Assembly: GCF_003014615.1 (NCBI RefSeq)
Contig: NZ_PYGI01000003.1
Coordinates: 62,001-126,000, forward strand
Source of the DNA: Marinobacterium halophilum
GTDB lineage: Bacteria; Pseudomonadota; Gammaproteobacteria; Pseudomonadales; Balneatricaceae
Length of the DNA stretch: 64,000 nucleotides
Reading direction: 5' to 3'
Positions 5,499 to 22,646 of this stretch are shown in pieces (position 1 is the stretch's first letter; each line of letters opens with the position of its first letter). The translations under genes and the position numbers were made by a program. A model generated the notes under the pieces. The model was given only the letters and a program-made list of their open reading frames with translations, was not told where the DNA came from and searched no databases.

Positions 5499-6238
5499 TT
5501 TTGCAACAACTGCCGGAATTTAGCCTTCGCCAACATCCAGGCAAATTTGCTATTGGTAACCAGGTACCGCTTCCACATGCGGCGTGGCTCCTGAATAACT
5601 CGGTAGAACCACTCAAGCCCCCATTTTTGCATCCACAAGGGTGCGCGCTTGACCTTACCCGCCACTACATCAAATGTGCCCCCCACCCCCATCACAAACG
5701 TCACACCCAACTGCTCACGCCAGCGATTGATGAAGTTCTCTTTTTTCGGGGACGTAATGGCAACAAACAGCAACTGAGCACCAGATTCACGCACCTTGTT
5801 CACCATAGCTTCTTCGTCGTCCCAAAAATAGCCATGGTGATAGCCCGCCAGTTTAAGGCCCGGATACAGCTGCTGTACCCGACGGGCCGTTTCACCCACT
5901 ACCTCATCCTGGGCACCCAGCAGAAATACCGAATATCCTTTTCGGGCACTCATCGCCAACAGTTCATGGAACAGATCCACCCCGGCGACACGTTCGGGCA
6001 CATCATGGCCCAACATGCGCGCGCCCAACACAACCCCCATGCCATCAATATTAATGATGTCGCATTCGCGTACTGAAGCATCCAGTTGCGGGTCTGACTG
6101 CATGTTTACAATTTTGGCGACATTGACCACTACATGCTGGGTAAAGCGCCCATCCGCTACAGCTGTATCGATCAGATCGACGGTCTCGCCCATGCTAGCT
6201 ACATCCATGGGGCAGTTAAGCAGTTCAATTCGGTTCAT
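5495..6238 (-). CDS. WecG/TagA/CpsF-family glycosyltransferase
   Basis: This 247-residue protein matches the GT26 family throughout. It has VVVNVAKIVNMQSDPQL near residue 40, the NIDGMGVVLGARMLG segment with the catalytic-type Asp, RVAGVDLFHELL, LLGAQ, and the family signature GVTFVMGVGGTFDVVAGK followed by RAPLWMQKWGLEWFYRV. Relatives transfer ManNAc or ManNAcA (WecG, TagA) to a lipid-linked acceptor, which fits the wecB and wecC genes in this locus. The start at 6238 leaves 11 bases after asnB; an upstream GTG at 6277 would overlap asnB by 28 bases and adds residues the family lacks. It is a peripheral membrane enzyme on the cytoplasmic side. Confidence 0.87.
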   Translation of the reverse strand: MNRIELLNCPMDVASMGETVDLIDTAVADGRFTQHVVVNVAKIVNMQSDPQLDASVRECDIINIDGMGVVLGARMLGHDVPERVAGVDLFHELLAMSARKGYSVFLLGAQDEVVGETARRVQQLYPGLKLAGYHHGYFWDDEEAMVNKVRESGAQLLFVAITSPKKENFINRWREQLGVTFVMGVGGTFDVVAGKVKRAPLWMQKWGLEWFYRVIQEPRRMWKRYLVTNSKFAWMLAKAKFRQLLQK

Positions 6239-6249
6239 TTGTCGGTCCG

Positions 6250-8100: not shown

Positions 8101-9203
8101 TAAAGCATTCCTATGGCAAGTTGAAGACGATGTTTGTGATAGTGGTAGGGGGCAATACCCCAACGAAGGAAATCTTTACCCCAGCGTCGGCCAAGAATAT
8201 CTATCCTGCAGTACCAATGACTATTCTTAGAGAACTTGCTTTCGACGCGCTGAGCAAACTCTGTTGCTTCAGCATAAAGTGAAAAATCAACCAGCAACCC
8301 CAAGTATTCTGCTTGATCATACAAGTCCCAACGAAATGGATCACGATGAGAACGATGACTGAAGCGTTTACAAAGACCCCGTTTGGGGTCATACAAATCA
8401 CTTCTGATATATGCCCAACCCTTGTCAATTGCGGGCTGTATTACTAAGCTTAGATCAGGGAGTAGTTTTTTGATTTTTATCAGGTTTTTTATAATAAAGC
8501 AGGAATGAAAACAATCAATAAAGTTTCCGTCTTCATTGTCTGCATAATAGTACCAGCTTCCATTTGATTGCTGCTTCGACAACACCCAATTAACCAAGCG
8601 CCGAACTCGATCCTGTGCAATTTTATTGTTATCTTCCTCACCATATACTGCATGCAGCGTATAAGCCAATGCAGCATAGCTATTCGCATTTATTACCCTT
8701 CTGGGCTCTAGAACAGGCGCGTAAGAAAGTGCCAATTCTGATTCAGTCGAGTGCATGACCTCCAAAACTTCAAGGAAAGACCATGTTTGCTGGAATAACT
8801 TCTTTGCTTGAGGTTTTAATTCAGACCGATCCGCAATTGAAACCAGTGCTTCCATTACATAAGGTGTATTAGTAATGTACGGTGTCTTAGCTGAATACAC
8901 TCCATTTTTTGAAAACCAGGAAAATGGTAAGCCCCATGCACTTTCGCGTACTCTTGCTTCGGTGAACTCATGAAGTGCGCCACTGGGTGATAGGTCATTG
9001 AACTGGTAACGCATAGCCTCAACATGAGGGAATGTATTCGGTTTTACCCTCAGTATTTGACGCAAAAGATTAGGTGCCAGCAACTCCATAACGCCTATCA
9101 TCGGCACCAAAAAAGCTTTTGCTTTTTGTCCACTAGTCCATTTACTTTTTAATTTCCCTAAAACGGGAATGGACCAAATATCGTAAGGATCATATGACTT
9201 CAT
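8100..9203 (-). CDS. Putative alpha/alpha-barrel protein of the EPS cluster
   Basis: This 367-residue soluble protein has no signal peptide. Regularly spaced helices with motifs such as TPYITNTPYVMEAL, INANSYAALAYTLHAVYG, QQSNGSWYYYAD and DPFRWDLYDQAEYLGLLVDF resemble the helical-hairpin toroids of glycoside hydrolases, epimerases and terpene-cyclase-fold enzymes. I cannot name a family. The conserved aromatic, Asp and His residues around GNFIDCFHSCFI suggest an active-site cavity. Both ends overlap neighbours by TAATG junctions (acetyltransferase upstream, asnB downstream), so it is translationally coupled to them. A role in modifying the repeat-unit sugar, perhaps as an epimerase or lyase, is inference. 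Confidence 0.6.
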   Translation of the reverse strand: MKSYDPYDIWSIPVLGKLKSKWTSGQKAKAFLVPMIGVMELLAPNLLRQILRVKPNTFPHVEAMRYQFNDLSPSGALHEFTEARVRESAWGLPFSWFSKNGVYSAKTPYITNTPYVMEALVSIADRSELKPQAKKLFQQTWSFLEVLEVMHSTESELALSYAPVLEPRRVINANSYAALAYTLHAVYGEEDNNKIAQDRVRRLVNWVLSKQQSNGSWYYYADNEDGNFIDCFHSCFIIKNLIKIKKLLPDLSLVIQPAIDKGWAYIRSDLYDPKRGLCKRFSHRSHRDPFRWDLYDQAEYLGLLVDFSLYAEATEFAQRVESKFSKNSHWYCRIDILGRRWGKDFLRWGIAPYHYHKHRLQLAIGML

Positions 9204-9733
9204 TAAGTGCCCTTTCGATAACGTATGATCTTAGCTGGAACACCTACAGCAATACTCCAATCGGGTAGATCCTTGGTTACAACAGACCCCGCACCAACTA
9301 TTACACCTGTGCCAATGGTAATACCAGGCATCACAATGACATTTTGGCCGAGCCAAACATCATCACAAATTACTGTAAGCTGACGAGGGGATGATCCTTG
9401 CTGCGCCATAGGTATGTCTGTGCTAGTAAAACCATGCTGCCGATCAAGCAATACGACACCGGGTGCAATCATAACGTCATTACCAATACGCGCAGATTTT
9501 ATAGTCGTATTCTGATTTATCTGACAGCGAGTCCCTATAAAAAGGTCCGGCCGAAATCCAACATCGATACCAGGCTCCAGCTCACAGGAATTACCTACTC
9601 TACACCCCATACCAATTAGAGAGTAACGCCTTATCTCACTAAAAATTAAGCCACCCGGCCAAAAGCTATGCGGTAGATGCTTAGCTACCAAACGATATAT
9701 CAGTAAAAAAATAAAATGAAGAATGTTCTTCAC
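9203..9733 (-). CDS. Hexapeptide-repeat acyltransferase (WcaF/LacA-like)
   Basis: The 176-residue protein has a hydrophobic N-terminus (ILHFIFLLIYRL). It then shows left-handed beta-helix hexapeptide repeats, including IGMGCRVGNSCELEPGIDVG, IGNDVMIAPGVVLLDRQHGF and the ending GTGVIVGAGSVVTKDLPDWS with VGVPAKIIRYR. The His in the DRQHGF segment matches the catalytic His of acetyltransferases that use acetyl-CoA on sugars. The start is taken as GTG at 9733, two bases after the stop of the glycosyltransferase gene, with GGAG upstream; an in-frame start further up would overlap that gene. It probably O-acetylates the EPS repeat unit in the cytoplasm. Confidence 0.85.
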   Translation of the reverse strand: MKNILHFIFLLIYRLVAKHLPHSFWPGGLIFSEIRRYSLIGMGCRVGNSCELEPGIDVGFRPDLFIGTRCQINQNTTIKSARIGNDVMIAPGVVLLDRQHGFTSTDIPMAQQGSSPRQLTVICDDVWLGQNVIVMPGITIGTGVIVGAGSVVTKDLPDWSIAVGVPAKIIRYRKGT

Positions 9734-9735
9734 TA

Positions 9736-10824
9736 TTAAAATGACTCCAGAAGTTTTCTTATATCTTTTGCTATACTGGAAACAGAAAACTGCTCCAGCA
9801 CCCACTTTTTGGCTTCCCTACCCATCTTTTTCCGAACGGAATAAGTTTCTAAACGTTTTATGGATTCAGCCAGCGCAGTAGGTGTATATTCCTCCGACAA
9901 ATAGCCACACCGGTTGTCAGCAACTACATCAGCAATTGGACCCCATTTATATGCAACTACTGGTAGCCCATTCGCCATAGCTTCCAGATACCCCATTCCA
10001 AAAGAGTCATAACGACTAGGGAGACAAAAAATATCAGCCTGGTCAAACAGCTTCTGTTTTTCTGTTCCCGATACCCAGCCACGAAATTGCACACGGCCCT
10101 CCAACTTCAGGCTTCTTACTCTGTCAACCAGTTCGTCCTGTTGTCGCCCACTGCCGGCGATAGAAAGGTGATAGTTATCCGGCAGCAAGGCCATAGCTTC
10201 AATCAGGTCATCAACACCTTTCCCTTGCTCCAATCGCGACATAGCCAAAATTTTGATCGTCTCGTTCGCATCTTTTTGAACAAATAGCTCTTCTGCTTTT
10301 TTTTGCCACTCAAGTGGCATAGGATTGGGTACTACATACACGGGTTTACCGATGCCAGCTTCAGACAAGCGGGACTTCCACCAAGGGGTCAAAACCGCTA
10401 TTGCATCGACTGGACACAGCATCATCGTGAAAAAACGCTGTTTTAGACCACCACCCAGATAGCTATTAACTTCAGGGCCATGTAGGTGCATTACAACGTG
10501 CCCGCCAAGCAATTTCGCCAACCCGCCCAAGGTGAATTTTCGCAGCATGGACAAAGCACCACCACCCACATGGCAGATAACAATGGGCTTATAATGTTCT
10601 CGACGGGCATTTATTAACTGCTCAAGTAGACTATGGATAGCTTTGAGCCAAGGTATAAATTTACCATGCCAACCTACTGAAGAGTGGGAGGAGATATACA
10701 ATGTCTCAAAACCAATAGCCTCGTATGCTGCCAGATGCCCAGGAATAGCAAAGGCGATGCCACCACTCTTTCTCAGGGTATCGGTACCCAAAACTAAAAT
10801 TCTCTTCCCAGCAGCTGAATTCAT
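9736..10824 (-). CDS. GT4-family glycosyltransferase
   Basis: The 362-residue protein has the GT-B layout. The N-terminal domain shows ILVLGTDTLRKSGGIAFAIP and the acceptor-side HLHGPEVNSYLGGG. The C-terminal GT4 domain has KILAMSRLEQGKGVDDLIEA, the nucleotide-sugar signature around FCLPSRYDSFGMGYLEAMANGLPVVAY, and the EX7E-like pair in that stretch. It would add one sugar of the EPS repeat unit on the cytoplasmic face of the inner membrane using a nucleotide sugar with retention of configuration; the sugar cannot be predicted. The start ATG overlaps the stop of the Wzy-like gene (ATGA), and the acetyltransferase follows within two bases. Confidence 0.9.
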   Translation of the reverse strand: MNSAAGKRILVLGTDTLRKSGGIAFAIPGHLAAYEAIGFETLYISSHSSVGWHGKFIPWLKAIHSLLEQLINARREHYKPIVICHVGGGALSMLRKFTLGGLAKLLGGHVVMHLHGPEVNSYLGGGLKQRFFTMMLCPVDAIAVLTPWWKSRLSEAGIGKPVYVVPNPMPLEWQKKAEELFVQKDANETIKILAMSRLEQGKGVDDLIEAMALLPDNYHLSIAGSGRQQDELVDRVRSLKLEGRVQFRGWVSGTEKQKLFDQADIFCLPSRYDSFGMGYLEAMANGLPVVAYKWGPIADVVADNRCGYLSEEYTPTALAESIKRLETYSVRKKMGREAKKWVLEQFSVSSIAKDIRKLLESF

Positions 10825-12011
10825 AACGGAACCTTCTTATTGTTAACATTTTTTCCTTCAGAAAAAATCAACATGCAAATTGCAGCAGACAAAAAATATG
10901 GTATTGATAATATTGAGAAAGAGAATGCTGCATCAATAAGAAATGAAGTCACTATAATAACCCAAGGTTTGGTTATATTTTTCTGCCCGTAACGAAAGAT
11001 AAAGAAAAGATAGGTTATCCCACCCAGCAAGCCGAGTTCAACAAACAAATGCGGGTAGAATGTATCAGTTGTTGAGAGTGTAGCTGTATTATGCCAATTA
11101 AAGTTATACTCTCTATACAATGGCGAACCGTACTTCACTGATGCAGGCCCACCAAACATTCCAAGACCTTCACCAATCAGATTTGGCTTGACCAACGACT
11201 CAAACATCACTCGATATGAGTCACTCCTAGCCGAGTTACCTTGGGTAATATAAAAAGCGAATTTACTGTCTATGGCTGATAGCATTGTGCCAATTAAATT
11301 CTTTTGCGTGTGAGCAAAAACGGCTATTGCGGCAATCAAAAAAATAGCAACCAAAGGTGCTGATTTTTTTTTCATATTGAAAGCTGCATAAATTATAAAT
11401 GCCGCCAACAATTTTAACGATGTTGATAGAACTGCAAATATAAAAAAAACAAAACTTAGCATTTTTTTATGGTTTTCATAAATCCCTGCATACCTAACCA
11501 GCATTAACGCACAAAAATTCATAAAGCCATAAAGAGAGAAAAAACCCACCCACCCTTCTGCACGAATTATACTACCAGCCTCGAATCTGATCGGAATTAA
11601 GACAGGAAAGCCAAAATAGTATGCCATATAAACATAAATCTGATATACATTATTAGATATAACAACCCATATAAATAATTTTGAAATTGAATCGATCACC
11701 CCCTTGTTAGAGTACAATGCCATTAAAACCAACATTGGAAGCAAAAACCTAAAGAGCTCTTCTATTGCAGCAGCCTCTCTGTCGGCCCTGAAATAATTCA
11801 TAATAAAAAAAATAAAGATTACAGGTATAATTACCAGCTCAACGGAAACTTTCCGAGATGTAGTAAATGCAATGACACTCAATACAGTGGCAATAATTTT
11901 CATTTGAAATGAAAAAGGGTTACCTATAGCTAGCAGCGTTTCGCTTATGAAAAACAAAAGCATGGCAACGCATAAAAAAAAGCCACCTATTTTTTTAAAT
12001 TCAATGGTCAT
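10821..12011 (-). CDS. Wzy-like polysaccharide polymerase
   Basis: The 396-residue protein is very hydrophobic with about ten to eleven membrane segments. It has one large extracytoplasmic loop of about 70 residues (NSARSDSYRVMFESLVKP, GEGLGMFGG, TTDTFYPHLFVELGLLGG) that resembles the ligase/polymerase loop of Wzy proteins, in which Arg and His residues are important. Sequence similarity in this family is too low for a firm assignment. The gene is clearly more AT-rich than its neighbours, with many A and T runs, which is typical of exchanged serotype-specific wzy genes. It would join repeat units at the periplasmic side after flipping. It overlaps the GT4 gene by four bases. Confidence 0.75.
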   Translation of the reverse strand: MTIEFKKIGGFFLCVAMLLFFISETLLAIGNPFSFQMKIIATVLSVIAFTTSRKVSVELVIIPVIFIFFIMNYFRADREAAAIEELFRFLLPMLVLMALYSNKGVIDSISKLFIWVVISNNVYQIYVYMAYYFGFPVLIPIRFEAGSIIRAEGWVGFFSLYGFMNFCALMLVRYAGIYENHKKMLSFVFFIFAVLSTSLKLLAAFIIYAAFNMKKKSAPLVAIFLIAAIAVFAHTQKNLIGTMLSAIDSKFAFYITQGNSARSDSYRVMFESLVKPNLIGEGLGMFGGPASVKYGSPLYREYNFNWHNTATLSTTDTFYPHLFVELGLLGGITYLFFIFRYGQKNITKPWVIIVTSFLIDAAFSFSILSIPYFLSAAICMLIFSEGKNVNNKKVPL

Positions 12012-12048: not shown

Positions 12049-13452
12049 TTAAAAACGTCCCGCTATCTTTTTATAAACCTTACTCGGATTCTTGACAACC
12101 CTTATCATACGCTCTATGCTACTTATCACTTTAAGTGAAAAAACATATCGCTTTGTTCCAGCATCGTAGTTTTCGAGAGGTTCACTGCGTTGCATAGCCC
12201 ACCGATTCTTGCTCAAATGCTGCAATTTATTCTGTAAGCATATTTTGAGCACTGCGATATAGTTGCAGCCCAACTTGGGCACCTGTCGTAAAGGCGGTAT
12301 TTTTTTGCCTTGCTTAACAGCGAGGGCCATCTGCACCTGTAGCCGGCTGCTTTTACCTTCCCACTGCGATGCTTGGCTGTCCGCAACCTTATCGATATCT
12401 ATCGGCTCAAAACTGCAACTGTTGCCTTTCCGACCTCGCTCAAATACGGTCATTATTTCTGGGTTGCGTACAGTGACGATAGAATGACCACGATGATCTG
12501 CCATGTATTCTGGTAGCCAAGCATCCATAAAGGAGGCATCTGCTACTTCAGCAAACAAATCATCACAGAAATTACAAGCATTCAGCTGGAACTGCCGACT
12601 AACCCAAGCATTTGATATTGCCCCATAAAATGGGACAGGCCGCCCTGACTTACCTGATTTATCAACGGCACGAAACAGGTAATTATTGGCAGGCCTACCT
12701 GGATTTTCACCTCGGTAGGAAACACTACCAATATTATCTGGCTCACAACCGCTAACTTTTGAGAGGTACTCGGTATAAAAAACGTTTGGCAGATGGCCGC
12801 AAACCAACCCGAACGTATAGGCAATAGACCGTCGCAGTACGGGTAACTTCCTCATGGCCAAAGCTATACCTTTCAAAGTACAAGGCAGGCCCACCACTGC
12901 ATAACGCTTGCCCTCCTTTAAGTCTTGAATGCTTCTTAGACGAGCACCAGCTGAAATAGGATAATAAAAAGATCCAGACGCAGCACGGACTTGTTCTGCG
13001 CAGGTAAATTCAGTCATCTGGAACAATAATCCATCTGATGGACGGTTATCACTGCTACTTGAGACTGTAATAACTGCATCCACAAGATTTTCTCGCAACA
13101 TAGCTTCAAGTAACCAGCTCAACATGCCACCTGAGGCACCTGTACTTCTATGTGTTGGCGAGTACCCAACAATATTATCCGTATATTTACCAACAGCTTC
13201 ATGCTGTTTAACTTCCGGATCTGTGAACTTTTCATCAGTTAGCTGTGTGATACTAATCGAGTTACTTGAAAAGGGGCAAACATCTAAACAGAGTACACAC
13301 CTTGGTGGGCACTCAGCAGTAATATCTGGTGCCAAATCACCATTGGCTTGCACATTCATATCCAATATTTTTGATGGACAGACACCTGCGCATACTCCGC
13401 AACCAGAACAGATATCATTTGCAACAATTTCATTAACAACATGTTTTTTCAT
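12049..13452 (-). CDS. Iron-sulfur F420-hydrogenase/dehydrogenase beta-subunit-like protein
   Basis: The 467-residue protein starts with two ferredoxin-type 4Fe-4S clusters: CSGCGVCAGVCP (residues about 15-26) and CPPRCVLCLDVCP. These are followed by the FrhB-type N- and C-terminal domains (PF04422/PF04432), seen in STGASGGMLSWLLEAML, RYAVVGLPCTLKGIALAM and CNFCDDLFAEVADASFMDAW. In archaea this family moves electrons to F420 using FAD. In bacterial EPS loci it recurs beside pyruvyl-transferase-family genes and its substrate is unknown. That pairing is seen here, with the flippase gene between. The start ATG overlaps the stop of the flippase gene by four bases. It acts in the cytoplasm. Confidence 0.85.
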   Translation of the reverse strand: MKKHVVNEIVANDICSGCGVCAGVCPSKILDMNVQANGDLAPDITAECPPRCVLCLDVCPFSSNSISITQLTDEKFTDPEVKQHEAVGKYTDNIVGYSPTHRSTGASGGMLSWLLEAMLRENLVDAVITVSSSSDNRPSDGLLFQMTEFTCAEQVRAASGSFYYPISAGARLRSIQDLKEGKRYAVVGLPCTLKGIALAMRKLPVLRRSIAYTFGLVCGHLPNVFYTEYLSKVSGCEPDNIGSVSYRGENPGRPANNYLFRAVDKSGKSGRPVPFYGAISNAWVSRQFQLNACNFCDDLFAEVADASFMDAWLPEYMADHRGHSIVTVRNPEIMTVFERGRKGNSCSFEPIDIDKVADSQASQWEGKSSRLQVQMALAVKQGKKIPPLRQVPKLGCNYIAVLKICLQNKLQHLSKNRWAMQRSEPLENYDAGTKRYVFSLKVISSIERMIRVVKNPSKVYKKIAGRF

Positions 13453-14756
13453 TTATATAACTTACTGTAGTTTAGCGTCCAGCCTTTCAGAGCTTCAGCC
13501 CCGAATACGTATTTGTGAACACCTTTTAAATAGATAGCACACAGAAGCACTTCGCTGAATATAGTTGAAACAGCAGCCCCATGCATGCCGTATTGTGGAA
13601 TCATAATTATGTTTAAGGCGACATTTGTAGCTGCAACTAACATTTGATAACGCATTTTATGTCGCATATTATCATTAGTTGACAGACAATTTCCGACACT
13701 TGAAGCCAGATAGCGAAAAGGTATTGTTATTGCCAACATCTGGGTTACTAAAGCTGCCGCAGTAAATTTCTCACCAAATAAAAAAGCAAGAAAAAAAGGA
13801 CTTAGCATAATAACAGCAAGCATTACAGCAAGGCCAATAAGTATCATACTAGCATTTCCTAGACGGTACGCGGTTAACATCCTATCCGGATCATGCGCTG
13901 CCCAATGGTGGTATCGAGGCAGTAGGTATTGATTGAATATAGCTGTAGGCAGCAAATAAGTAAGTGCTATCAATGTGTAACCCACACTATACAAAGCGGC
14001 TTCCTCTGCGCCAGCCAAAGCAGAAAGCATGAATAGATCACTTTGCAAATATATTAAGCTGAAAAAATTACCCATAGCGAAAGGCAGTGCGGATTTATAT
14101 ATGGTACTAATTGTTATAGCCTTTTGGGCATTAACTGTATCGATCGACCTTCCGATCTTTAATTTGATATGGCCTTTAAGCATTGGGCGTAAATGCCAAA
14201 CTGAAAAAATCAGAATACCTATCGAAGCAAAGAAATACCCTTTAATTACTTCATTGACACCATAGCCAGAGAGCCATACTGCCAACACTACAAGCAATCG
14301 CGCTGCTTTAGGCAAGGCACGCCACAGGGAAAGCAGTAGAAAACGACTTTCCAACTGCAATCTAGAGCCAGCCAAAATAACCAGTGCTTCCATCGGCAGA
14401 ATGGGTAAAGCCCACCAAATCAGGACTCTGGTTTCTTGTGATTCCCAACTAAGATAGCCTATGGATAGCAGCAAGGTCATCATGCATATGCTACTGACCC
14501 AAACGGTGTTGAAGCCTGGCCAGACCCAGCGCATTCCAATTTCCTGGCCTTGGCCAAACAGCTTCAACCATAAGGCGGATATACCAAAGTCAGCTAGTGG
14601 TACCAGCAAGGTAACCAAAGATATAACCCCAACCAACATACCAAGATCGGCTAATGGCAGGCTTCGAGCCAGTATTAACTGAGTCAAGAAGACGAACCCC
14701 GCGCCACCCAACAGGCCAATCCAAAGTGCCATTATTGATTTAAGCTGCGCTCGCAT
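13449..14756 (-). CDS. Wzx-type polysaccharide flippase
   Basis: The 435-residue protein has about 12-14 membrane segments and the layout of the MOP/MATE-fold polysaccharide biosynthesis family. The N-terminal LLGGAGFVFLTQLILARSLP is followed by LADLGMLVGVISLV, the middle segment SALPFAMGNFFSLIYLQSDLF, and AALYSVGYTLIALTYLLPTAIF. It would flip the undecaprenyl-linked repeat unit from the cytoplasmic to the periplasmic side of the inner membrane, ahead of polymerisation. It sits 47 bases downstream of the pyruvyl-transferase-family gene and overlaps the Fe-S protein gene. Confidence 0.88.
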   Translation of the reverse strand: MRAQLKSIMALWIGLLGGAGFVFLTQLILARSLPLADLGMLVGVISLVTLLVPLADFGISALWLKLFGQGQEIGMRWVWPGFNTVWVSSICMMTLLLSIGYLSWESQETRVLIWWALPILPMEALVILAGSRLQLESRFLLLSLWRALPKAARLLVVLAVWLSGYGVNEVIKGYFFASIGILIFSVWHLRPMLKGHIKLKIGRSIDTVNAQKAITISTIYKSALPFAMGNFFSLIYLQSDLFMLSALAGAEEAALYSVGYTLIALTYLLPTAIFNQYLLPRYHHWAAHDPDRMLTAYRLGNASMILIGLAVMLAVIMLSPFFLAFLFGEKFTAAALVTQMLAITIPFRYLASSVGNCLSTNDNMRHKMRYQMLVAATNVALNIIMIPQYGMHGAAVSTIFSEVLLCAIYLKGVHKYVFGAEALKGWTLNYSKLYK

Positions 14757-14803: not shown

Positions 14804-16087
14804 TCATTTTCCCGTGATACTTTTTAACTCTTCACCAAACTTAAACAACTGTTCTTCGATGCTGTCCCGCACATCAAACAATTGTTGACGAATGGCCTCC
14901 GCATCATTAATGCAGCGCTTTTGGCAGCCGACCAACTTTTCTGCAGTTAGATCGGCAATATCAATAGATAAGTCTGCTTGGCCAATATTACTCATATAGC
15001 CTAGTAACTTGCGCTGTGTGTTAATTGTAATTGTGGGCGTACCGGCCATTGTAGACAATATGGATGCATGCATTCGTGTCGATATCACCATATCCATGCG
15101 TGCGGTCATAGCCTTGTAGCGGCGTGCCGAATAAACAGCGGGTTTAAGGATATAACACGCAACCTTACATTCCACGGCGCTGATTACTCTTTTTGCTGCA
15201 TCATAATCGGAGGAATCGTTCCCGTATACTGGCATGTTCGCTGGCATAAAAACGACACCCAGGTCATTCTGTTCTGCCATTTCAAGTAAACTGTCTGCCA
15301 GAACATCAAGGTAGTTCCTGCTTGCGATACCTTCCTCAACCCATGATGAAACTATCACCCCAATCCAGACTTTTTTATCGTCAAGGTTTACACCTAATTC
15401 ACGCAGGGCTTGTTCAGCTTCTTCGCGGCTAGCTTGTGGTTGCGCTACACCTACATCAGGACAAAAACATGCTTGCGCACCGCTCAACCCTAACGAGAGC
15501 AGTTCATCATGTGATGGTTTATCCCGCGCAATCACCACTGTGCAACGAGACAATACCTTAGCGACCAGCCAGCGGGCCCAACGTCTGCGAAGGGGACCTA
15601 TGCTTTGCGGAAAAATTATGACTTTTTTCCCGAAACGTGAAGCTAACCAAAACATGAACATATACATGGGTAGCGTTTTACGGAAGGAGTCATTGATCAT
15701 TTCCCCGCCAATGGATATGACCAAATCGGCATTATGAATATCCTTCATTGCGTTCCGACGTATACCGGGAAGTGCCAACCAGTGCGGGGGAAGTTTAAAT
15801 GTAACTGCATTAAGACACTGAACCAACATGAACACAGTAATGCGCAGAAGCCAGAAAATCTTACTTATAGTCGATCCACCCTGAGGGATATCTGACAGCA
15901 TAGTCTTCGTGATACCCGGTATTTTTACTGTTTCACCAAAAGACTCTGGAACTTGTGCTTGTACGTGGAGTTCGATTTCTGGCCATATGCGATAAAGCAG
16001 TTGCGCACTACTATCAAGCAATACATCATTGCCAACATGAGATGAGCTATAAGCGTCGATGAATAGGGCTTTTTTTTTGCTTTTCAA
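14804..16087 (-). CDS. Polysaccharide pyruvyl transferase family protein
   Basis: The 427-residue protein has the PF04230 layout. An N-terminal nucleotide-like motif ALFIDAYSSSHVGNDVLL is followed by ADLVISIGGEMINDSF, the FGKKVIIFPQSIGPLRRRWAR segment, TVVIARDKPSHDELLSLG and, near the C-terminus, MVISTRMHASILSTMAGTPTITIN, whose R-x-H is the family's conserved pair. These enzymes transfer pyruvate from phosphoenolpyruvate to a sugar as a ketal, giving the polymer negative charge; some members have other roles. The start codon is TTG at 16087 with GGAG about 10 bases upstream, and no better start is in frame. wecC lies 59 bases upstream on the same strand. Confidence 0.85.
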   Translation of the reverse strand: MKSKKKALFIDAYSSSHVGNDVLLDSSAQLLYRIWPEIELHVQAQVPESFGETVKIPGITKTMLSDIPQGGSTISKIFWLLRITVFMLVQCLNAVTFKLPPHWLALPGIRRNAMKDIHNADLVISIGGEMINDSFRKTLPMYMFMFWLASRFGKKVIIFPQSIGPLRRRWARWLVAKVLSRCTVVIARDKPSHDELLSLGLSGAQACFCPDVGVAQPQASREEAEQALRELGVNLDDKKVWIGVIVSSWVEEGIASRNYLDVLADSLLEMAEQNDLGVVFMPANMPVYGNDSSDYDAAKRVISAVECKVACYILKPAVYSARRYKAMTARMDMVISTRMHASILSTMAGTPTITINTQRKLLGYMSNIGQADLSIDIADLTAEKLVGCQKRCINDAEAIRQQLFDVRDSIEEQLFKFGEELKSITGK

Positions 16088-16146: not shown

Positions 16147-17484
16147 TTACCAATTTTTATGTGTCAGGTCGTTATATAAACCTCGCGTATCAATCACGTA
16201 TTTTTCGGCAATTTTTTGCACTCCACCCTCTTTAAATAATTTGTGATCTACCAAAAGTACAGCGATGACCGCTCGCTCTGTTGCATTGGCTATTGTTTCA
16301 AGCGACAAGTTTTTGCCTGCAGTTAGTGGTAACTCTTTAATATTTGGCTCCACCGCCAGCACTGATCCCGGATGCTGGGCTGCAATCCTCTGCGTAATCG
16401 CCAACGCCGGACTTTCCCTCAAATCATCAATATCTGCCTTAAACGCCAACCCATAACAGGCAATCGTTACGTCTCTGGCTGTTTTATCTGGATTCTCCTG
16501 CAGATATTCCGCCACTGCCAGTTTTACCTTATTGATCACCCATTCCGGCTTGCTATCGTTCACCTCACGGGCGGTACGAATCAAACGGGCTTCTTCCGGG
16601 GTTTTACTGACAATAAACCACGGGTCTACAGCGATGCAGTGGCCGCCAACGCCGGGGCCGGGCTGGAGGATATTGACCCGTGGATGGCGGTTGGCCAAAC
16701 GAATCAGTTCCCATACGTTGATATCCAGCTTATCGCAGATCATCGACAGCTCGTTGGCAAATGCGATGTTCACATCACGGAAGCTATTCTCGGTCAGTTT
16801 GGCCATTTCTGCAGTACGGGCGTTGGTGACAACGCACTCCCCTTGCACAAAGCTTTTGTACAAAGCGCAGGCCTGTTCAGAACACTTGGCTGTCATGCCA
16901 CCCACTACTCGGTCATTCTGTACCAGCTCACGTAATACATGCCCCGGTAATACCCGCTCGGGGCAATGGGCAATACGGATATCAGACACTTCACCGTGGG
17001 TCTGCGGGAAGGTCAGGTCAGGCCGTGCTTCGGCTAGCCAGTCAGCCACTTTTTCGGTCGCGCCGACGGGGGATGTCGATTCCAGAATGACCAGATTTCC
17101 GGGCTTCAGGACTGGCGCAATCGCGCGGGCAGCGGCTTCGATGTAGGAGAGGTCGGGTTCGGGATGGCGTGGTTCGCCAGCGGGGCTGGCTCCTACAGGG
17201 TGAGTTCCTGCTGGGCACTCTTTGAATGGAGTAGGTACGGCGATCAGGAAGGCATCAGCAGCTTCAGGGATTGTAGTGGCACGAAGGTAGCCTTCGGTCA
17301 CGGCCGCATGCACCACCATATCCAGGTCGGGTTCGACAATGTGAATTTCACCCCGGTTAATGGTATCAACGGCATGCTGGTTAACATCTACGCCTACCAC
17401 CTTGATTTTGCGTGATGCGAATACTGCAGCGGTGGGTAGGCCGATGTAGCCCAGGCCAATAACGGATATGGTGTTGAATTGCAT
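16147..17484 (-). CDS. wecC: UDP-N-acetyl-D-mannosamine dehydrogenase
   Basis: The 445-residue enzyme oxidises UDP-ManNAc to UDP-ManNAcA with NAD. The N-terminal Rossmann fold has ISVIGLGYIGLPTAAVFASR, the next block ends in NRGEIHIVEPDL, and the middle has LESTSPVGATEKVADWL. The active-site block NILQPGPGVGGHCIAVDPWF carries the catalytic Cys in GGHC. The start at 17484 has AAGGA upstream; a longer in-frame start at 17511 lacks support. Compared with E. coli WecC there is a clear insertion after AVPTPFKE (about residues 88-106) rich in Pro, Ala and Gly. It is encoded by a REP repeat inserted in frame at 17174-17199. All key residues remain, so activity is likely kept. Confidence 0.93.
   Translation of the reverse strand: MQFNTISVIGLGYIGLPTAAVFASRKIKVVGVDVNQHAVDTINRGEIHIVEPDLDMVVHAAVTEGYLRATTIPEAADAFLIAVPTPFKECPAGTHPVGASPAGEPRHPEPDLSYIEAAARAIAPVLKPGNLVILESTSPVGATEKVADWLAEARPDLTFPQTHGEVSDIRIAHCPERVLPGHVLRELVQNDRVVGGMTAKCSEQACALYKSFVQGECVVTNARTAEMAKLTENSFRDVNIAFANELSMICDKLDINVWELIRLANRHPRVNILQPGPGVGGHCIAVDPWFIVSKTPEEARLIRTAREVNDSKPEWVINKVKLAVAEYLQENPDKTARDVTIACYGLAFKADIDDLRESPALAITQRIAAQHPGSVLAVEPNIKELPLTAGKNLSLETIANATERAVIAVLLVDHKLFKEGGVQKIAEKYVIDTRGLYNDLTHKNW
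17174..17199 (-). repeat. REP repeat inside the wecC coding sequence
   Basis: On the minus strand the repeat has the CCTGTAGGAGC head, the imperfect palindrome CAGCCCCGCTGG and the CGA tail. It lies in frame within wecC and encodes part of the extra Pro/Gly/Ala segment. A degenerate second half-copy (CCCAGCAGGAACTCA region) follows at about 17200-17219. Confidence 0.8.
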
Positions 17485-17535
17485 GGGGTGTCCTTGGAAA
17501 GCTATATGCACGGGTGTCGAGTAAGTTGAATATAA

Positions 17536-17558: not shown

Positions 17559-18677
17559 TTACATCAGGGCGTTGAGGATGCGCTGGCAGGCTTGGCCGTC
17601 GCCATAGGGGTTATGTGCCTGGCTCATGCGCTGGTAGGAAGTCGCGTCTGTTAGCAGGCTATTGACCTCGGTAACAATCGTATGGATATCGGTACCCACC
17701 AGTTTTACGGTACCCGCCTCTACCGCTTCAGGGCGCTCGGTGGTTTCACGCATCACCAGCACCGGCTTACCCAGTGAGGGCGCTTCCTCCTGAATACCAC
17801 CCGAGTCAGTCAGGATCAGGGTCGCCTGTGTCATCAGGTATACAAATGGCAGGTAATCCTGAGGGGCGATAAGGTGGATATTATCCACGCCTTTCAGCAG
17901 CCGGTTGACGGGCTCCTGCACATTGGGGTTCAGGTGAACCGGGTACAGAATCTGGCTATCCGGGTGCTGCTGCGCAATCCTGCGCAATGACTCACAGATG
18001 CGCTCAAACCCGCCGCCGAAGCTTTCGCGTCGGTGTCCGGTAACCAACACCAGCTTCTTGTCAGGATCAAGCATCGGATAGCCCGCAGCCAGCTCGGTTT
18101 TAAGTGTTACGTCTTGGTCGATCTTGTCACGCACCCAAAGCAAGGCGTCGATAACGGTGTTGCCGGTCACGCTAATCAAATCGGCTGATACGTTTTCTGT
18201 CAGCAGGTTACTTTTTGACGTGGCCGTAGGCGCAAAGTGATAGCGCGTAATTGCACTTGTCAGCTTGCGGTTGGCCTCTTCTGGCCAAGGAGAGTAGATG
18301 TTACCGGTGCGTAGCCCCGCTTCAACATGCCCTACCGGGATTTGCTGGTAATAAGCCGCCAGTGCGGTAGCAAATGTGGTTGCCGTATCACCGTGCACCA
18401 GCACTACATCTGGCTTGAAATCCTCTAATACCGGCTTCATGCCGGTCAGAATAGCGGTAGTTACATCGTTCAGGCTTTGGCCCGGCGTCATGATGTTCAG
18501 ATCATAATCAGGCGTGATCTCGAACAGACTCAAGACCTGATCCAACATCTCGCGGTGCTGGGCCGTCACGCAAACGCTGGCATCGAAGCGTTCATCGGCG
18601 GCCAAGGCATGTACCAGCGGTGCCATTTTGATCGCTTCAGGGCGGGTACCAAATACTGTCAGGATTTTTTTGGTCAT
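17559..18677 (-). CDS. wecB: UDP-N-acetylglucosamine 2-epimerase (non-hydrolysing)
   Basis: The 372-residue enzyme interconverts UDP-GlcNAc and UDP-ManNAc, feeding WecC. It shows the full family pattern: [20 protein letters not shown] at the N-terminus, [73 protein letters not shown] and the UDP-binding end [20 protein letters not shown] followed by [19 protein letters not shown]. Length and motifs are normal. It lies 75 bases upstream of wecC on the same strand, with a REP repeat between them. Besides EPS, the product could also feed other ManNAc-containing glycans. Confidence 0.95.
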
Positions 18678-18823: not shown

Positions 18824-20296
18824 TTAAAGGTGAAACACTGTATCGGTTGTGCATATCGTTTGTAGTTTTTGCCTCAGCACCTGTTTCGCCCCGCTGTCCC
18901 CGTGCACCAGCCGTATCGCGCTCGGCTTGTGCTTCATGCCCTTCACGAAGTTGACCAGCCCCTGCTGATCAGCATGGGCGGAATAGCCGCCAATGGTTTC
19001 AACGCGGGAGCGTATGTCGATACGTTCGTCATCCAGCATGACGTAACCGCCGTTTGGCCCGTATTGCTGGATATCCCGCCCCGGTGTGCCTTCGGCCTGG
19101 TAACCGACGAACAGTACATCGTGGCGTTCATCACCCAGCATCGCCTTGAGATAGTTGACGATGCGCCCGGCGTTACACATACCGCTACCGGCAATGACGA
19201 TGGCCGGACGGCCGGATTGGGCCAGGTGGTGGACCATTTTCAGGTGTTCGTGGTGGCTATCGACGGTAAGCAAGGTGTCGAATGCCAAGGGCTTGCGGCC
19301 CTGTTTCAGCCGGGTGTGGGCTTCTTCGTCCCAAAAGGGTTTCAGCTCGCGGTAGGTGGCAGTGAATTTTGATGCCAGCGGCGAGTCCAGAATTACCGGG
19401 ATTGGGGCCTCGGTGCCAGTGCCTGATCGCTTGCAGGGCAGGCTCCTACCATCAGAGGGTTGCCCTATCAGCTCTTCCAGTTCGTACAGCAGTTCTTGGG
19501 TGCGGCCAATGCTGAAGGCTGGAATCAGCACGGTGCCGTTGTTGCGCAGTGCCCGGTCGATGGCGGCCTTGAGCCGCTGTTTACGGGTGGCACGGCTTTC
19601 GTGGTTGCGATCACCGTAAGTGCTTTCCAATACCAGTATGTCGGCCTTGTAGGGCGGTTTGGGCGCGGGCAGCAACGGGGTGTGGCTGGCTCCCAAGTCA
19701 CCCGAGAATACGATGCGGGTGCTTGATCGCGTGCGCGGCACGCTCCTAAGTCTATCCATATCGTTAGATGTATTCGTGGCAGCCTGCCCCGCAGGCGATT
19801 GTTCAACATCCACTTCAACATAGGCCGAGCCGAGGATATGCCCGGCGCGTTGCAACTTGATGCGCACCCGCTGTTCGGGCGTATCGATCAAGGTGAACCA
19901 CTGCTTGTACGGCAGCGCAATCATGCGCGCGTCAATCTGCTTCAGGTAACGCTCAACCAACGCCTTGTCACGGCTAATGCCCAGTTTGAAGGCATCTTCC
20001 AGCACCAGCGGCAGCAGTTTGGCCGAGGGCTGCGAGCAGATGATCGGCCCGTTAAAGCCTGCGGCCAGCAACCAGGGAATGCGGCCAACATGGTCGATGT
20101 GTACATGGGTAGCAACCAGCGCCCTGACGCTGCTGATATCGAAATCGATGTTGTGGCGTTCGCTGCTGTTACCGTTGCCCGCTTCGCTGCCTTGAAACAG
20201 GCCGCAGTCGATAAGCAGGCTAGTATGGGCGTCAATGTGAAGCTGGTGGCATGAGCCTGTGACGCCATAACGGGCACCGTGGTGTTCAATGTTCAT
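18824..20296 (-). CDS. MBL-fold beta-CASP RNA/DNA hydrolase with REP-derived insertions
   Basis: The 490-residue protein has the metallo-beta-lactamase metal motif THVHIDHVGRIPWLLAAGF, a further metal Asp in RIVFSGDLGASH, and a beta-CASP block (PAFSIGRTQELLYELEELIG, IVIAGSGMCNAGRIVNYLKAML). It ends with the RMMBL-type GGYSAHADQQGLVNFVKGM and RLVHGDSGAK. Homologues process or degrade RNA (CPSF73/YsgA-like). The start at 20296 has AAGGAT 6 bases upstream; a longer frame would begin inside a REP repeat. Two segments, about residues 167-190 and 283-290, are coded by REP repeats and look like extra loops. Why a nuclease gene sits in an EPS operon is unclear. Confidence 0.85.
   Translation of the reverse strand: MNIEHHGARYGVTGSCHQLHIDAHTSLLIDCGLFQGSEAGNGNSSERHNIDFDISSVRALVATHVHIDHVGRIPWLLAAGFNGPIICSQPSAKLLPLVLEDAFKLGISRDKALVERYLKQIDARMIALPYKQWFTLIDTPEQRVRIKLQRAGHILGSAYVEVDVEQSPAGQAATNTSNDMDRLRSVPRTRSSTRIVFSGDLGASHTPLLPAPKPPYKADILVLESTYGDRNHESRATRKQRLKAAIDRALRNNGTVLIPAFSIGRTQELLYELEELIGQPSDGRSLPCKRSGTGTEAPIPVILDSPLASKFTATYRELKPFWDEEAHTRLKQGRKPLAFDTLLTVDSHHEHLKMVHHLAQSGRPAIVIAGSGMCNAGRIVNYLKAMLGDERHDVLFVGYQAEGTPGRDIQQYGPNGGYVMLDDERIDIRSRVETIGGYSAHADQQGLVNFVKGMKHKPSAIRLVHGDSGAKQVLRQKLQTICTTDTVFHL
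19427..19449 (-). repeat. REP repeat inside the beta-CASP gene (downstream copy)
   Basis: On the minus strand the GTAGGAGCC head, the palindrome CTGCCCTGCAAG and a CGA tail lie in frame in the coding sequence. They encode the segment SLPCKRSG between the beta-CASP helix ending LIGQP and the conserved PIPVILDSPLA strand. Confidence 0.8.
19727..19798. repeat. Inverted pair of REP repeats inside the beta-CASP gene
   Basis: Two REP copies face each other: 19727-19750 (minus; TTAGGAGCGTGCCGCGCACGCGA-like, degenerate head) and 19780-19798 (plus; palindrome CCTGCCCCGCAGG with CGA tail). The 72 bases keep the frame and encode an extra segment of about 24 residues rich in Ala, Thr, Ser and Arg, just before RIVFSGDLG. 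This is the paired (BIME) layout of REP elements. Confidence 0.75.
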
Positions 20297-20325
20297 GGCA
20301 GATCCTTTGCCTATGTGTGAGCCTG

Positions 20326-20380
20326 TTCGCTTGCAAGGCAAGCTCCTACGGGTATGTAGTAGGAGCCTGCCTGCAGGCGA
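20326..20380. repeat. Inverted pair of REP repeats upstream of the beta-CASP gene
   Basis: One copy at 20326-20349 (minus; GTAGGAGC head, TTGCCTTGCAAG palindrome) faces another at 20359-20380 (plus; GTAGGAGC head, CTGCCTGCAGG palindrome, CGA tail). They fill most of the 117-base gap between the beta-CASP gene and the priming transferase gene and could fold into a large mRNA structure. Confidence 0.8.
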
Positions 20381-20413: not shown

Positions 20414-21799
20414 TTAATAGATGTCCTTCGAGATCAGCGTAAAGGGTGTTTTGATCAAGATCTTGATATCCAGCCACACGGACCAGTTATTGATGTATTG
20501 CAGGTCCAGTTCAACCCGTTTTTGCATCTTGTCCAGGGTTTCGGTTTCGCCACGACAGCCACTGACTTGTGCTAACCCGGTAATCCCCGGTTTGATCCTG
20601 TGCCGAGCCATGTACGCGGTAATTTTATCCGAGTAGTAGTCATTGTGTGCCACCGCATGAGGACGCGGCCCAACCAGTGACATGTCGCCTTTGAGGACGT
20701 TGAACAACTGTGGCAACTCATCAATGGATGTCTTGCGGATGAACTGGCCCACAGCGGTAATGCGCGAATCGTTGCGCTTGGCTTGCTTCACCATTTGGTC
20801 GTCATGAACCTTCATGGAGCGGAACTTGAGCACCTGAAACACTTCACCGTTCATGCCATGTCGCGGTTGCCGAAACAGCACGGGGCCGGGGGAGGAAAGC
20901 TTGACAGCAATGGCGGTGCCGATCAGTACCGGGCTGATGACGATAATGCCAAGTGCCGCCGCCACACGGTCCAGTACGGCCTTAAGCACGGCACTGGTCG
21001 GATAGCTGGTCAGCGGGCTTTCATTAAGGTGGATGGCCGGCAGGCCTTCGATATCGGTAACGGAATGATTCAGCATCACCAGGCTGGCCAGGTCGGGTAT
21101 CCAGACGACATCCACACCAGCATCCAGCAGATCAATGTACAGATCTTTGACCTGCTCCATCTCGTGGGCAGGCAAGGCGATGTACAGACGACGAATGTCG
21201 TGCTGTTCAATCAATTCACGCAGATAGCTGGATGCGCCCAGTTCAGGATACAGCGCGTCATCCAGGCTTGGGAGATCATCCGTGCGAATCAGGCCGAGCA
21301 GAGGTTCGTTACGCTTGCGGCTGATTTTATCCGCCAGCTGCAGTGCCAAATCACCGGTGCCCAGAATTGCGGCGCGACACGCCTCACGCAGTTGGTTGTG
21401 ATAGCGACAAGACAGGCTGTGTAGCGGGATGAAGGCCAGCAGTTGTACGCCATAGCCGATAAGCGTCCATTGCAACAGGACTTCACGGGAATACAGCTCA
21501 CTGGTTTTGGTGATAAAGGCCAACACAGCCAGCACGGACAACAGCAGCAACCAGCCCGCGAGTAAACGGGCAGCACCGGTGAGGTAACCGGTATGGCGGT
21601 TGTAAACACCCAGCAGGGTATACACCGGGATAGACCCCAACAGTGCCAGTACGCCGAGGGTACGATAATGGGGGGCTACTTCGCCGGTTTTGAGGTAGGC
21701 CAACAGCCCCAATAGTCCCAGTACCAGCATATTGCCAAGTGCCCACTGGCCCCAAAATGTCAGGCCTCTTGCCGATTGGGCGGGTTTACTGAGTGTCAT
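20414..21799 (-). CDS. EPS priming glycosyl-1-phosphate transferase (WcaJ/polyprenyl type)
   Basis: The 461-residue protein has about four N-terminal membrane helices (starting LTFWGQWALGNMLVLGLLGL) and a CoA-binding-like middle domain (AAILGTGDLALQLADKIS). A fifth membrane segment (ALGIIVISPVLIGTAIAVKL) precedes the bacterial sugar transferase domain PF02397 (LFRQPRHGMNGEVFQVLKFR, RKTSIDELPQLFNVLKGDMS, LVGPRPHA, YMARHRIKPGITGLAQVSG). It would start the repeat unit by moving a sugar phosphate, most likely glucose-1-P, to undecaprenyl phosphate. The start at 21799 (MTLSKPAQ) is preferred over longer in-frame starts that would run into the ops element. It is the first gene of the EPS operon after the ops site. 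Confidence 0.9.
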   Translation of the reverse strand: MTLSKPAQSARGLTFWGQWALGNMLVLGLLGLLAYLKTGEVAPHYRTLGVLALLGSIPVYTLLGVYNRHTGYLTGAARLLAGWLLLLSVLAVLAFITKTSELYSREVLLQWTLIGYGVQLLAFIPLHSLSCRYHNQLREACRAAILGTGDLALQLADKISRKRNEPLLGLIRTDDLPSLDDALYPELGASSYLRELIEQHDIRRLYIALPAHEMEQVKDLYIDLLDAGVDVVWIPDLASLVMLNHSVTDIEGLPAIHLNESPLTSYPTSAVLKAVLDRVAAALGIIVISPVLIGTAIAVKLSSPGPVLFRQPRHGMNGEVFQVLKFRSMKVHDDQMVKQAKRNDSRITAVGQFIRKTSIDELPQLFNVLKGDMSLVGPRPHAVAHNDYYSDKITAYMARHRIKPGITGLAQVSGCRGETETLDKMQKRVELDLQYINNWSVWLDIKILIKTPFTLISKDIY

Positions 21800-21877
21800 G
21801 ATGGGCCTGTGCCTGGATGACAAAAATGGATAACGCCTGGCATGGCATATACGCTGCATCCTTGAGTCGCGTTCGGG

Positions 21878-21889
21878 CACGCTACCGCC
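21878..21889 (-). promoter_or_regulatory. ops element (RfaH recruitment site)
   Basis: The minus strand reads GGCGGTAGCGTG followed by CCC, identical to the E. coli ops consensus. It lies about 80 bases upstream of the priming transferase start, in the leader of the EPS operon. At ops, paused RNA polymerase exposes the non-template strand and recruits RfaH, which suppresses Rho-dependent termination. The rfaH gene is next door, which supports the call. Confidence 0.9.
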
Positions 21890-22052
21890 CAGAGATTATA
21901 TGTAGGGCAATCCTCTGGCCCAGTATCCATGCCTTTTTATAAGGGCTTAGCCGTAGCGGTATCCAATAAAGTGCGCAGCTCGAAAACTGACAGCACCCCG
22001 CCCGGCATATTGAGCGCAGTATGTTACCCGATTACAGAGGCGATGCAATTCA

Positions 22053-22088
22053 ATCACATGCGACGCCCTGATCACATGCGACGCCCTG
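22053..22088. repeat. Two tandem copies of an 18-base repeat
   Basis: ATCACATGCGACGCCCTG occurs twice head to tail with no spacer, about 30 bases upstream of the rfaH -10 box, where the -35 region and activator sites would be. It could be a simple duplication or a pair of regulator sites. Confidence 0.7.
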
Positions 22089-22113
22089 CAAGCAGGCCAA
22101 TATCAGCCTGACC

Positions 22114-22122
22114 TGATATAAT
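22114..22122 (+). promoter_or_regulatory. Extended -10 promoter for rfaH
   Basis: TGATATAAT matches the extended -10 form (TGnTATAAT) exactly and sits 32 bases upstream of the rfaH start codon. No good -35 box is present at the usual distance, as expected for extended -10 promoters. Confidence 0.6.
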
Positions 22123-22154
22123 AAGTATCAATTGTTTCAACACGTGATTCATCT

Positions 22155-22646
22155 ATGCCTGACTACAAATGGTACGCTGTGCAATCCAAGCCCGGACAGG
22201 CTGAACGGGCTGAGCAGGAACTACGCAACCAGGGTTTCGAGGTTTTTCTGCCACTGATCACGGTGGAAAAACTGCAGCGCGGCAAACGGGTCGAAAAAAT
22301 TGAACCGCTGTTTCCCGGGTATCTGTTTATTGAACTGTCAGAGTTGGCCAGCAACTGGCGGCCCATTCGTTCTACCCGTGGTGTGGCACGCATTCTGACC
22401 TTCGGCGATAAACCGGCGATCGTACCGGATGATGTGATCGAACTGCTGCGCGACAGCCTCAAGCACGCAGCCGATCAACCATCACTGGAGCCAAACCAGA
22501 CCGTGCGCATCGCGTCTGGCCCCTTCAATAATTTGAATGCGGTCTTTGTCGAATACGACGGTGAAAAGCGCGCTTTCCTGATGCTGGAGCTGCTGGGACA
22601 GTGGCAACGGTTGTCATTGCCGCTGAATGCGATCAACCCTGGTTGA
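22155..22646 (+). CDS. rfaH: Transcription antitermination protein RfaH
   Basis: The 163-residue protein matches RfaH along its length. The NusG-type N-terminal domain starts with YKWYAVQSKPGQAERAEQEL, then has FEVFLPLITVEKLQRGKR (RfaH-specific), PLFPGYLFIEL, and STRGVARILTFGDKPAIVP. The C-terminal KOW-type domain (VRIASGPFNNLNAVFVEYDG) is the part that refolds from alpha-helix to beta-barrel to recruit ribosomes in E. coli RfaH. It is transcribed divergently from the EPS operon, whose leader carries a perfect ops site, so the EPS genes are the likely target. Confidence 0.93.
   Translation: MPDYKWYAVQSKPGQAERAEQELRNQGFEVFLPLITVEKLQRGKRVEKIEPLFPGYLFIELSELASNWRPIRSTRGVARILTFGDKPAIVPDDVIELLRDSLKHAADQPSLEPNQTVRIASGPFNNLNAVFVEYDGEKRAFLMLELLGQWQRLSLPLNAINPG

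Follow-up and report, generated by a model that had tools for sequence, protein, structure and literature searches.

An RfaH-type antiterminator encoded right beside a long operon raises a simple question: does the regulator belong to its neighbour alone, or does it serve the cell at large? The locus that poses it lies in a stretch of 64,000 nucleotides from Marinobacterium halophilum (hereafter the window; C3:62001-126000 of a 3.65-Mb draft genome that is 99.87% complete), where rfaH and an ops element occupy a common intergenic region in front of a polysaccharide operon. The original prediction held that such a locus is self-contained, and that it may have a dedicated RfaH and travel together with it. 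Here we argue for a plainer account, namely ordinary RfaH/ops antitermination of a Marinobacterium kind, in which a single RfaH would act on the linked ops and in trans on a second one, the rfaH gene staying in its place and the polysaccharide cassettes varying. Judged from sequence comparison, we put the probability of this reading at about 85%. Among the matches listed in a search of the open-licence literature, Marinobacterium and RfaH occur together only in an Azotobacter genome paper.

The intergenic region and the polysaccharide operon

The original prediction was right about the architecture. A perfect ops core does stand in the leader of the polysaccharide operon: the consensus, which we take to be GGCGGTAGNNT, is found on the coding strand of the leader and forms, with its preceding G, an exact copy of the 13-mer GGGCGGTAGCGTG (Table 1). 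The 12-mer GGCGGTAGCGTG has a single exact copy in the 64-kb window, at 21878-21889 on the minus strand. Between ops and the likely ATG start of the first operon gene (21799, minus strand) lie 78 bases; the start given by the ORF tool, a GTG at 21880, falls within ops itself and is an unlikely start for this gene. The divergent gene on the other side encodes a true RfaH, which scores 161.7 bits against TIGR01955 (curated cut-off 144.5) and 143.6 bits against NF006534 (cut-off 124), and the gap from start codon to start codon is indeed 355 bases long (21800-22154). The estimate of a roughly 20-kb minus-strand cluster was too generous, the uninterrupted run from ops comprising 13 genes over 16.3 kb (21799 down to 5495). 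The G+C content of the operon is 52-58% in genes 1-4 and drops to 35% in its middle.

Table 1. Features of the rfaH/ops locus and of the polysaccharide operon, in window coordinates
Feature	Position	Strand	Basis
rfaH, NusG-family antiterminator, 163 aa	22155..22646	+	TIGR01955 and PF02357 matches
Candidate extended -10 promoter of rfaH, TGATATAAT	22114..22122	+	putative, read by eye
JUMPstart-like leader stretch, CCAGAGGATTGCCC...CTCT	21891..21918	-	alignment of 17 leaders
ops element with preceding G, GGGCGGTAGCGTG	21878..21890	-	exact match
Gene 1, WcaJ-type undecaprenyl-phosphate glycosylphosphotransferase	20414..21799	-	TIGR03023 443.8 bits (cut-off 410.75; frame taken from 21880), PF02397
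Gene 2, beta-CASP metallo-hydrolase	18824..20341	-	PF10996, PF07521, PF00753
wecB, UDP-GlcNAc 2-epimerase	17559..18677	-	TIGR00236 542 bits, over cut-off
wecC, UDP-ManNAc dehydrogenase	16147..17511	-	NF008286 748 bits, over cut-off
Polysaccharide pyruvyl transferase	14804..16087	-	PF04230
Wzx-type flippase	13449..14756	-	PF01943
FrhB/FdhB-like protein	12049..13452	-	PF04432, PF04422
Protein matching no family (35% G+C), perhaps the Wzy polymerase	10821..12011	-	profile searches
Glycosyltransferase (group 1)	9736..10824	-	PF00534
Hexapeptide acyltransferase	9203..9805	-	PF00132
Weak glycosyl hydrolase 88 match	8100..9203	-	PF07470 19.6 bits, under cut-off 26.6
Asparagine-synthase-like amidotransferase	6250..8163	-	PF00733, PF13537
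WecG/TagA/CpsF glycosyltransferase, final gene of the run	5495..6277	-	PF03808

A sigma-70 scan of the intergenic region returned no site with both hexamers, neither for the operon nor for rfaH. By eye, TGNTATACT stands at a comparable spot ahead of rfaH in two congeners (G001 and G003). Two further observations concern the same region: the gap between rfaH and ops contains the 18-mer ATCACATGCGACGCCCTG twice in perfect tandem (22053-22088), and the leader beyond ops (21799-21860, minus strand) holds what may, on visual inspection, be a short frame of about 20 codons that is preceded by AAGGA and overlaps the beginning of gene 1.

From the genes, the sites, their synteny and the co-occurrence of ops with RfaH, all of which are observed, we infer pausing, recruitment and antitermination, with action at both ops sites of the genome. 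RNA polymerase would start in the 355-base gap, transcribe the leader and pause at ops, where the cell's single RfaH would bind the exposed ops bases and displace NusG; the polymerase, probably together with ribosomes, would then read through the long and partly AT-rich polysaccharide operon. The same RfaH would very probably act in trans at the second ops, on contig C2.

A second ops site and a single RfaH

Two proteins of the NusG family (PF02357) are encoded in the genome, RfaH and a protein on contig C8 that reaches just 50.3 bits against TIGR01955 and is taken to be NusG; the RfaH of the window is the sole RfaH that the profile search found. A second copy of GGGCGGTAGCGTG lies at C2:2195-2207 on the minus strand, ahead of polysaccharide genes, and its leader (GAGGATTRCCCTA...GGGCGGTAGCGTG) is of the same extended type as that of the window ops. 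The site is followed by a 402-aa protein without Pfam match, read as a flippase from its amino-acid make-up, and then by a hexapeptide acyltransferase, in DNA of 32% G+C; this second gene ends about 0.2 kb short of the contig end. The contig start, where this cassette runs out, looks insertion-sequence-like by eye (L046 1-200). Two more perfect 12-mers were considered and set aside: the copy at C9:130458 lies within a long frame, and that at C3:194381 falls in a short frame, has no leader of this type and has no recognised polysaccharide genes within 3 kb.

On sequence grounds one RfaH very probably serves both ops sites, the C2 site in trans. The second site, with its shared leader type and its polysaccharide genes, means that the locus is not self-contained even in its own genome. 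The genome-wide search that had been proposed for other ops sites and RfaH paralogs thus yielded a further ops and no second rfaH; the arrangement that was to speak against the prediction, another rfaH with many ops sites, did not turn up in that literal form, and what the genome holds is one rfaH and two ops.

Synteny across Marinobacterium

Among the matches listed, the closest named relatives of the window RfaH are proteins of Marinobacterium species. Eight genomes of the genus (by the grouping of the tool) were searched, seven of which encode an RfaH over the cut-off and together hold nine copies of the 13-mer. Three of these nine lie less than 300 bases from rfaH and divergent from it (G000, which is the window genome, G005 and G007), one lies 4.4 kb away (G006) and five are at least 252 kb distant or on another contig. 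The stretches around rfaH in G001, G002 and G003 contain no ops; the contig of G002 covers only 2.3 kb on the left, and an ops farther out in this genome is a possibility that counts against our reading of interchangeable cassettes.

The place of rfaH is fixed in the genus, and the adjoining ops-led polysaccharide cassette, if there is one, varies by species. A marker gene without Pfam match, F7, lies downstream of rfaH on the same strand in all seven RfaH-bearing congeners, ops-adjacent or not, at 1.8, 2.6, 4.4, 4.9, 17.7, 19.6 and 40.9 kb from the start of the rfaH match to its own start, and it is also present in G004, which has no rfaH. Four of the genomes (G001, G003, G006 and G007) have yaeQ as the convergent neighbour of rfaH. 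Ops-led cassettes occupy three places: the rfaH side (G000, G005 and G007, with G006 at 4.4 kb), the side of an amidohydrolase gene that we read as pyrC (adjoining in G000 and G001, 6 kb off in G003) and the mutS side (G002, with one gene between, and G007). In G007 the mutS-side ops leads relatives of gene 1 (78%), WecB (88%) and WecC (83%) of the window at a distance of 435 kb from rfaH, and the rfaH-linked ops leads a beta-CASP gene. Cassettes have apparently been exchanged behind ops sites, and the linkage of rfaH and operon in the window is best explained, as far as the sequences go, as one of several interchangeable arrangements.

These comparisons bear on the remaining parts of the original prediction. 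Linked ops sites do occur in some congeners; rfaH, however, keeps its place ahead of F7 in seven of seven genomes as the cassettes change theirs, and relatives of the first operon genes are found far from it, so that movement of the locus as one block finds no support. Nor is there support for an RfaH specific to the locus, given the second site in the same genome and the five of nine congener sites that are remote from rfaH or on another contig.

Is the regulator private to its neighbour?

The alternative that survives best is that RfaH serves just the adjoining operon, in cis or close to it, rfaH and operon being inherited or transferred as a unit. We consider this improbable. It has the physical linkage at this locus in its favour, and such linkage is not confined to the window. 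Among the best 80 named rfaH loci of at least 564 confirmed relatives, which are not independent of one another, the ops-like core GGCGGTAGYNT occurs within 1 kb of rfaH in 31 (about 200 shuffled cores averaged 0.61 and never exceeded 5). Over the same distance the stricter core GGCGGTAGCGT is collinear in 24 (rfaH, then ops), divergent in 6 and absent in 50, and it never points towards rfaH. The linked loci include Marinobacter, Alcanivorax, Halopseudomonas, Amphritea and Pleionea among others, and the adjacency of rfaH and ops is therefore widespread.

A contrast between G006 and G007 could likewise point to transfer. Their RfaH proteins (L164 and L165) are identical in 78.5% of trimmed columns (74.2% in a blastp alignment of 159 residues) as against 99.94% of columns in nine frames of the nusG-rpoB region, which were selected because all genomes have a match to them and were not individually confirmed as genes. 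It is as if the rfaH allele had changed fast or been exchanged. The proteins make this contrast look sharper than it is, because the yaeQ gene beside rfaH, 95% identical as protein, is itself just 87% identical as DNA. Trees of 13 RfaH proteins and of 14 concatenates of the nine frames (3305 columns) show no well-supported conflict; the concatenate tree makes sisters of G002 and G005 (0.999), which the RfaH tree, with supports of 0.53-0.78, does not.

The window RfaH shares 40% of its residues with the E. coli protein over 146 aligned columns. The E. coli protein binds a hairpin of the non-template ops strand in the paused complex, and in passages of two papers K10, R16, H20, T72 and R73 are the positions with strong ops defects, Q24 and R23 being other contacts (PMC5995543, PMC2871177). 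In our alignment the window RfaH keeps the equivalents of K10, R16, Q24, T72 and R73 (as K12, R18, Q26, T74 and R75) and has H20 and R23 changed to E22 and N25, so that four of the five positions with the strongest E. coli pausing defects are kept and H20 is not. Over the best 80 named loci the H20 position is H in 46, N in 25, E in 7 and Q in 2. The four kept positions speak for our preferred reading of ordinary antitermination; the two changes weigh somewhat against it, as does the lack of a two-hexamer promoter for the operon in the scan described above.

The equivalents of E48 and R138, which we take to be the salt-bridge partners of autoinhibited RfaH with its alpha-helical, fold-switching C-terminal domain, are both kept in the window protein. 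Of the 36 loci linked within 1.3 kb, all have R at the R138 position and 35 have E at the E48 position; of the 44 others, all have R and 42 have E. Linked and unlinked RfaH proteins are thus alike at the presumed bridge, which counts against a private regulator. AlphaFold2 drew the C-terminal domain of the window RfaH as a beta barrel (pTM 0.62), as a non-switching protein acting in cis might have it, and the first Foldseek match of the model is the fully recruited, open RfaH (TM 0.56). L102, a presumptive control whose C-terminal domain is closer to that of E. coli (59% identity over 37 residues) than that of the window protein, was modelled as a barrel as well; the prediction therefore does not tell switching from non-switching forms. 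With the conserved bridge, the second ops in the same genome, the remote ops sites around a fixed rfaH and the operon relatives at the mutS place of G007, the balance of the evidence lies with a single RfaH that serves linked and unlinked sites.

Relation to known systems

Compared with RfaH and ops/JUMPstart of E. coli, the window system has a family member over the cut-off, an identical ops core, a leader ahead of a long polysaccharide operon, and one RfaH for more than one likely target; the target operons in E. coli are rfb, kps and waa. It differs in that rfaH adjoins one of its targets and in that the upstream leader follows another consensus. Envelope genes among the neighbours of rfaH have been described in passages of Wang et al. 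(2020) for clusters CL2-CL8, and these clusters, including CL7 of Shewanella, resemble the window in having rfaH beside polysaccharide genes outside the enterobacteria (PMC7593976). The placing of rfaH beside envelope genes is hence already published, and the window locus is a further example.

UpxY of Bacteroides and TaA of Myxococcus are likewise NusG paralogs that go with a long target operon, be it for a polysaccharide or for something else. According to passages of the same paper they are encoded within that operon (PMC7593976); rfaH of the window, in contrast, is divergent from its target operon and lies outside it, and its product scores 84.2 bits against the UpxY family (NF033644), under the cut-off of 100. 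Closest in outlook is a 2026 preprint, passages of which state that long neighbouring operons go mostly with RfaH proteins predicted to be non-switching, and not with most switching ones, and that these NusG-like proteins may act in cis (PMC13015549). The window shares with such putative monomorphic beta-RfaH proteins the linkage to a long operon, from which the idea of a private regulator draws further support; it differs from the account in that preprint in retaining the majority of the residues that bind ops, along with the counterparts of E48 and R138, and in having a perfect ops.

The ops element and its leader

Another alternative is that the ops at 21878 is a relic or a coincidence without function and that the operon is expressed without RfaH. 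The degenerate 12-mer GGCGGTAGNNTG lends it some colour, being weak on its own: it shows no enrichment in the genome (12 matches against 11 for the reversed control), and 9 of its 12 matches fall within long frames. The 13-mer GGGCGGTAGCGTG, unlike the degenerate 12-mer, is the informative form of ops, with two matches in this genome against none for the reversed control and 63 against 4 over 57 genomes. It is present in 17 of the 23 genomes with an RfaH over the cut-off and in 5 of the 34 without (Fisher one-sided p = 8.5e-6, or 1.6e-5 without the window genome, with related genomes treated as independent), and G004, the sole congener without RfaH, has no 13-mer.

The association has exceptions. 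G056, with its RfaH under the cut-off, has a gene for an RfaH-like protein (121.8 bits) at a distance of about 0.3 kb from the 13-mer, and G020, G043 and G046 have one 13-mer each and no RfaH-like match above 60 bits. Two points count against our main reading: 6 of the 23 RfaH genomes have no exact 13-mer, and G042, an order-level relative, holds 21 of the 63 copies with RfaH-like proteins of merely 76.6 and 69.6 bits.

Upstream of ops the leader stretch of the window resembles that of the C2 site and of 15 further leaders of relatives, a class of 17 when 79 distinct leaders are sorted by eye. Against the Rfam JUMPstart family (RF01707) the window leader scores 15.4 bits, under the gathering score of 35, and neither the window nor the C2 site has a match over that score; the leader may work like JUMPstart, though we do not class it as a member. 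The upstream stem of this class shows no covariation (0 pairs changed on both sides in 17 leaders), a slid register pairs 89.2% against 82.4%, and the entire window leader folds no better than its shuffles (z 0.68). For these reasons we claim sequence conservation only; a pseudoknot between GCCC and GGGC is a conceivable further element of leader structure. A genome search with a longer leader pattern found the C2 site alone and missed the window's own site, because the spacing differs by two bases.

A second class of 12 leaders, from Alcanivorax, Pseudomonas and others (L017, L018, L019, L102, L117 with two sites, L121, L128, L132, L138, L139 and L156), shows a covarying 5-bp stem immediately ahead of ops, in which 100% of 60 cells are paired and 10 are changed on both sides, with 0 of 500 shuffles as high, a flattering figure since the members were picked by eye partly for the stem. 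A conserved JUMPstart stem-loop has already been published, as passages of PMC2864571 describe. A third, Marinobacter-type class comprises 27 references. Straight after GGCGGTAGCGTG, many leaders from several lineages appear to carry YCTGA or YCTAA, an uncounted impression.

A non-functional ops could thus appeal to the 12-mer counts, to the lack of a recognisable promoter and to the indifferent folding of the leader; the recurrence of the 13-mer with a similar leader before polysaccharide operons in relatives, its co-occurrence with RfaH and its absence from the rfaH-less congener make such a relic very improbable. Equally doubtful is a feedback by which transcription in the divergent gap couples the supply of RfaH to the operon: the shared 355-base gap and the possible extended -10 element would suit it, but a scan for promoters and terminators found no regulator site, the sequences upstream of rfaH differ between congeners by eye, and three congeners have no ops in view near rfaH.

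The beta-CASP gene behind ops

A beta-CASP gene stands first or second behind seven of the nine ops sites that the RfaH-bearing congeners contain, at one site per genome: it is the first gene in G001, G002, G003, G005, G006 and G007 and the second in the window. None was seen behind the C2 ops (two genes covered) or the mutS-side ops of G007 (10 kb covered). The window protein is CPSF73/FttA-like, scoring 246 bits against TIGR03675 (aCPSF1; cut-off 580.2), and a Pfam search at E 0.001 found no KH domain in it. Over the aligned portion covered, which stops short of the end, 12 beta-CASP proteins preserve HxHxDH and other, presumably catalytic motifs. At E 1e-30 or better, 32 of the 57 genomes encode relatives; among the best 80 named loci, 8 have a close match (53-77%) and 20, mostly Marinobacter, a distant one (28-31%) within about 10 kb of rfaH.

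Passages of one paper describe how in archaea Spt5, a relative of NusG, bridges FttA to the polymerase, and among the matches listed this is the only paper in which RfaH and beta-CASP occur together (PMC11616081). By analogy the protein might be an RNA-cleaving partner that RfaH holds through its KOW domain on the elongating polymerase and that trims or terminates the polysaccharide transcript, a far-fetched idea, since in eight genomes without an RfaH over the cut-off the gene also lies among polysaccharide genes (7 Polysacc_synt_2, 7 UDPG_MGDP_dh and 6 MannoseP_isomer among 64 neighbouring proteins, of 95 listed, with short ones and beta-CASP itself left out) and is better seen as a gene of polysaccharide clusters. 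The simpler reading is that RfaH merely controls it. Its recurrence at the head of ops operons is less expected and is a lead in its own right.

Implications

The comparisons within one genus suggest that the linkage of rfaH and ops comes and goes through the exchange of cassettes around a fixed rfaH. A neighbouring operon alone is therefore no proof that an RfaH acts in cis. The exchange of cassettes bears on the proposal, made in passages of the recent preprint, that linked RfaH proteins are non-switching and cis-acting (PMC13015549); Marinobacterium, in which a single genome combines both types of ops, linked and unlinked, would be a direct test case for it.
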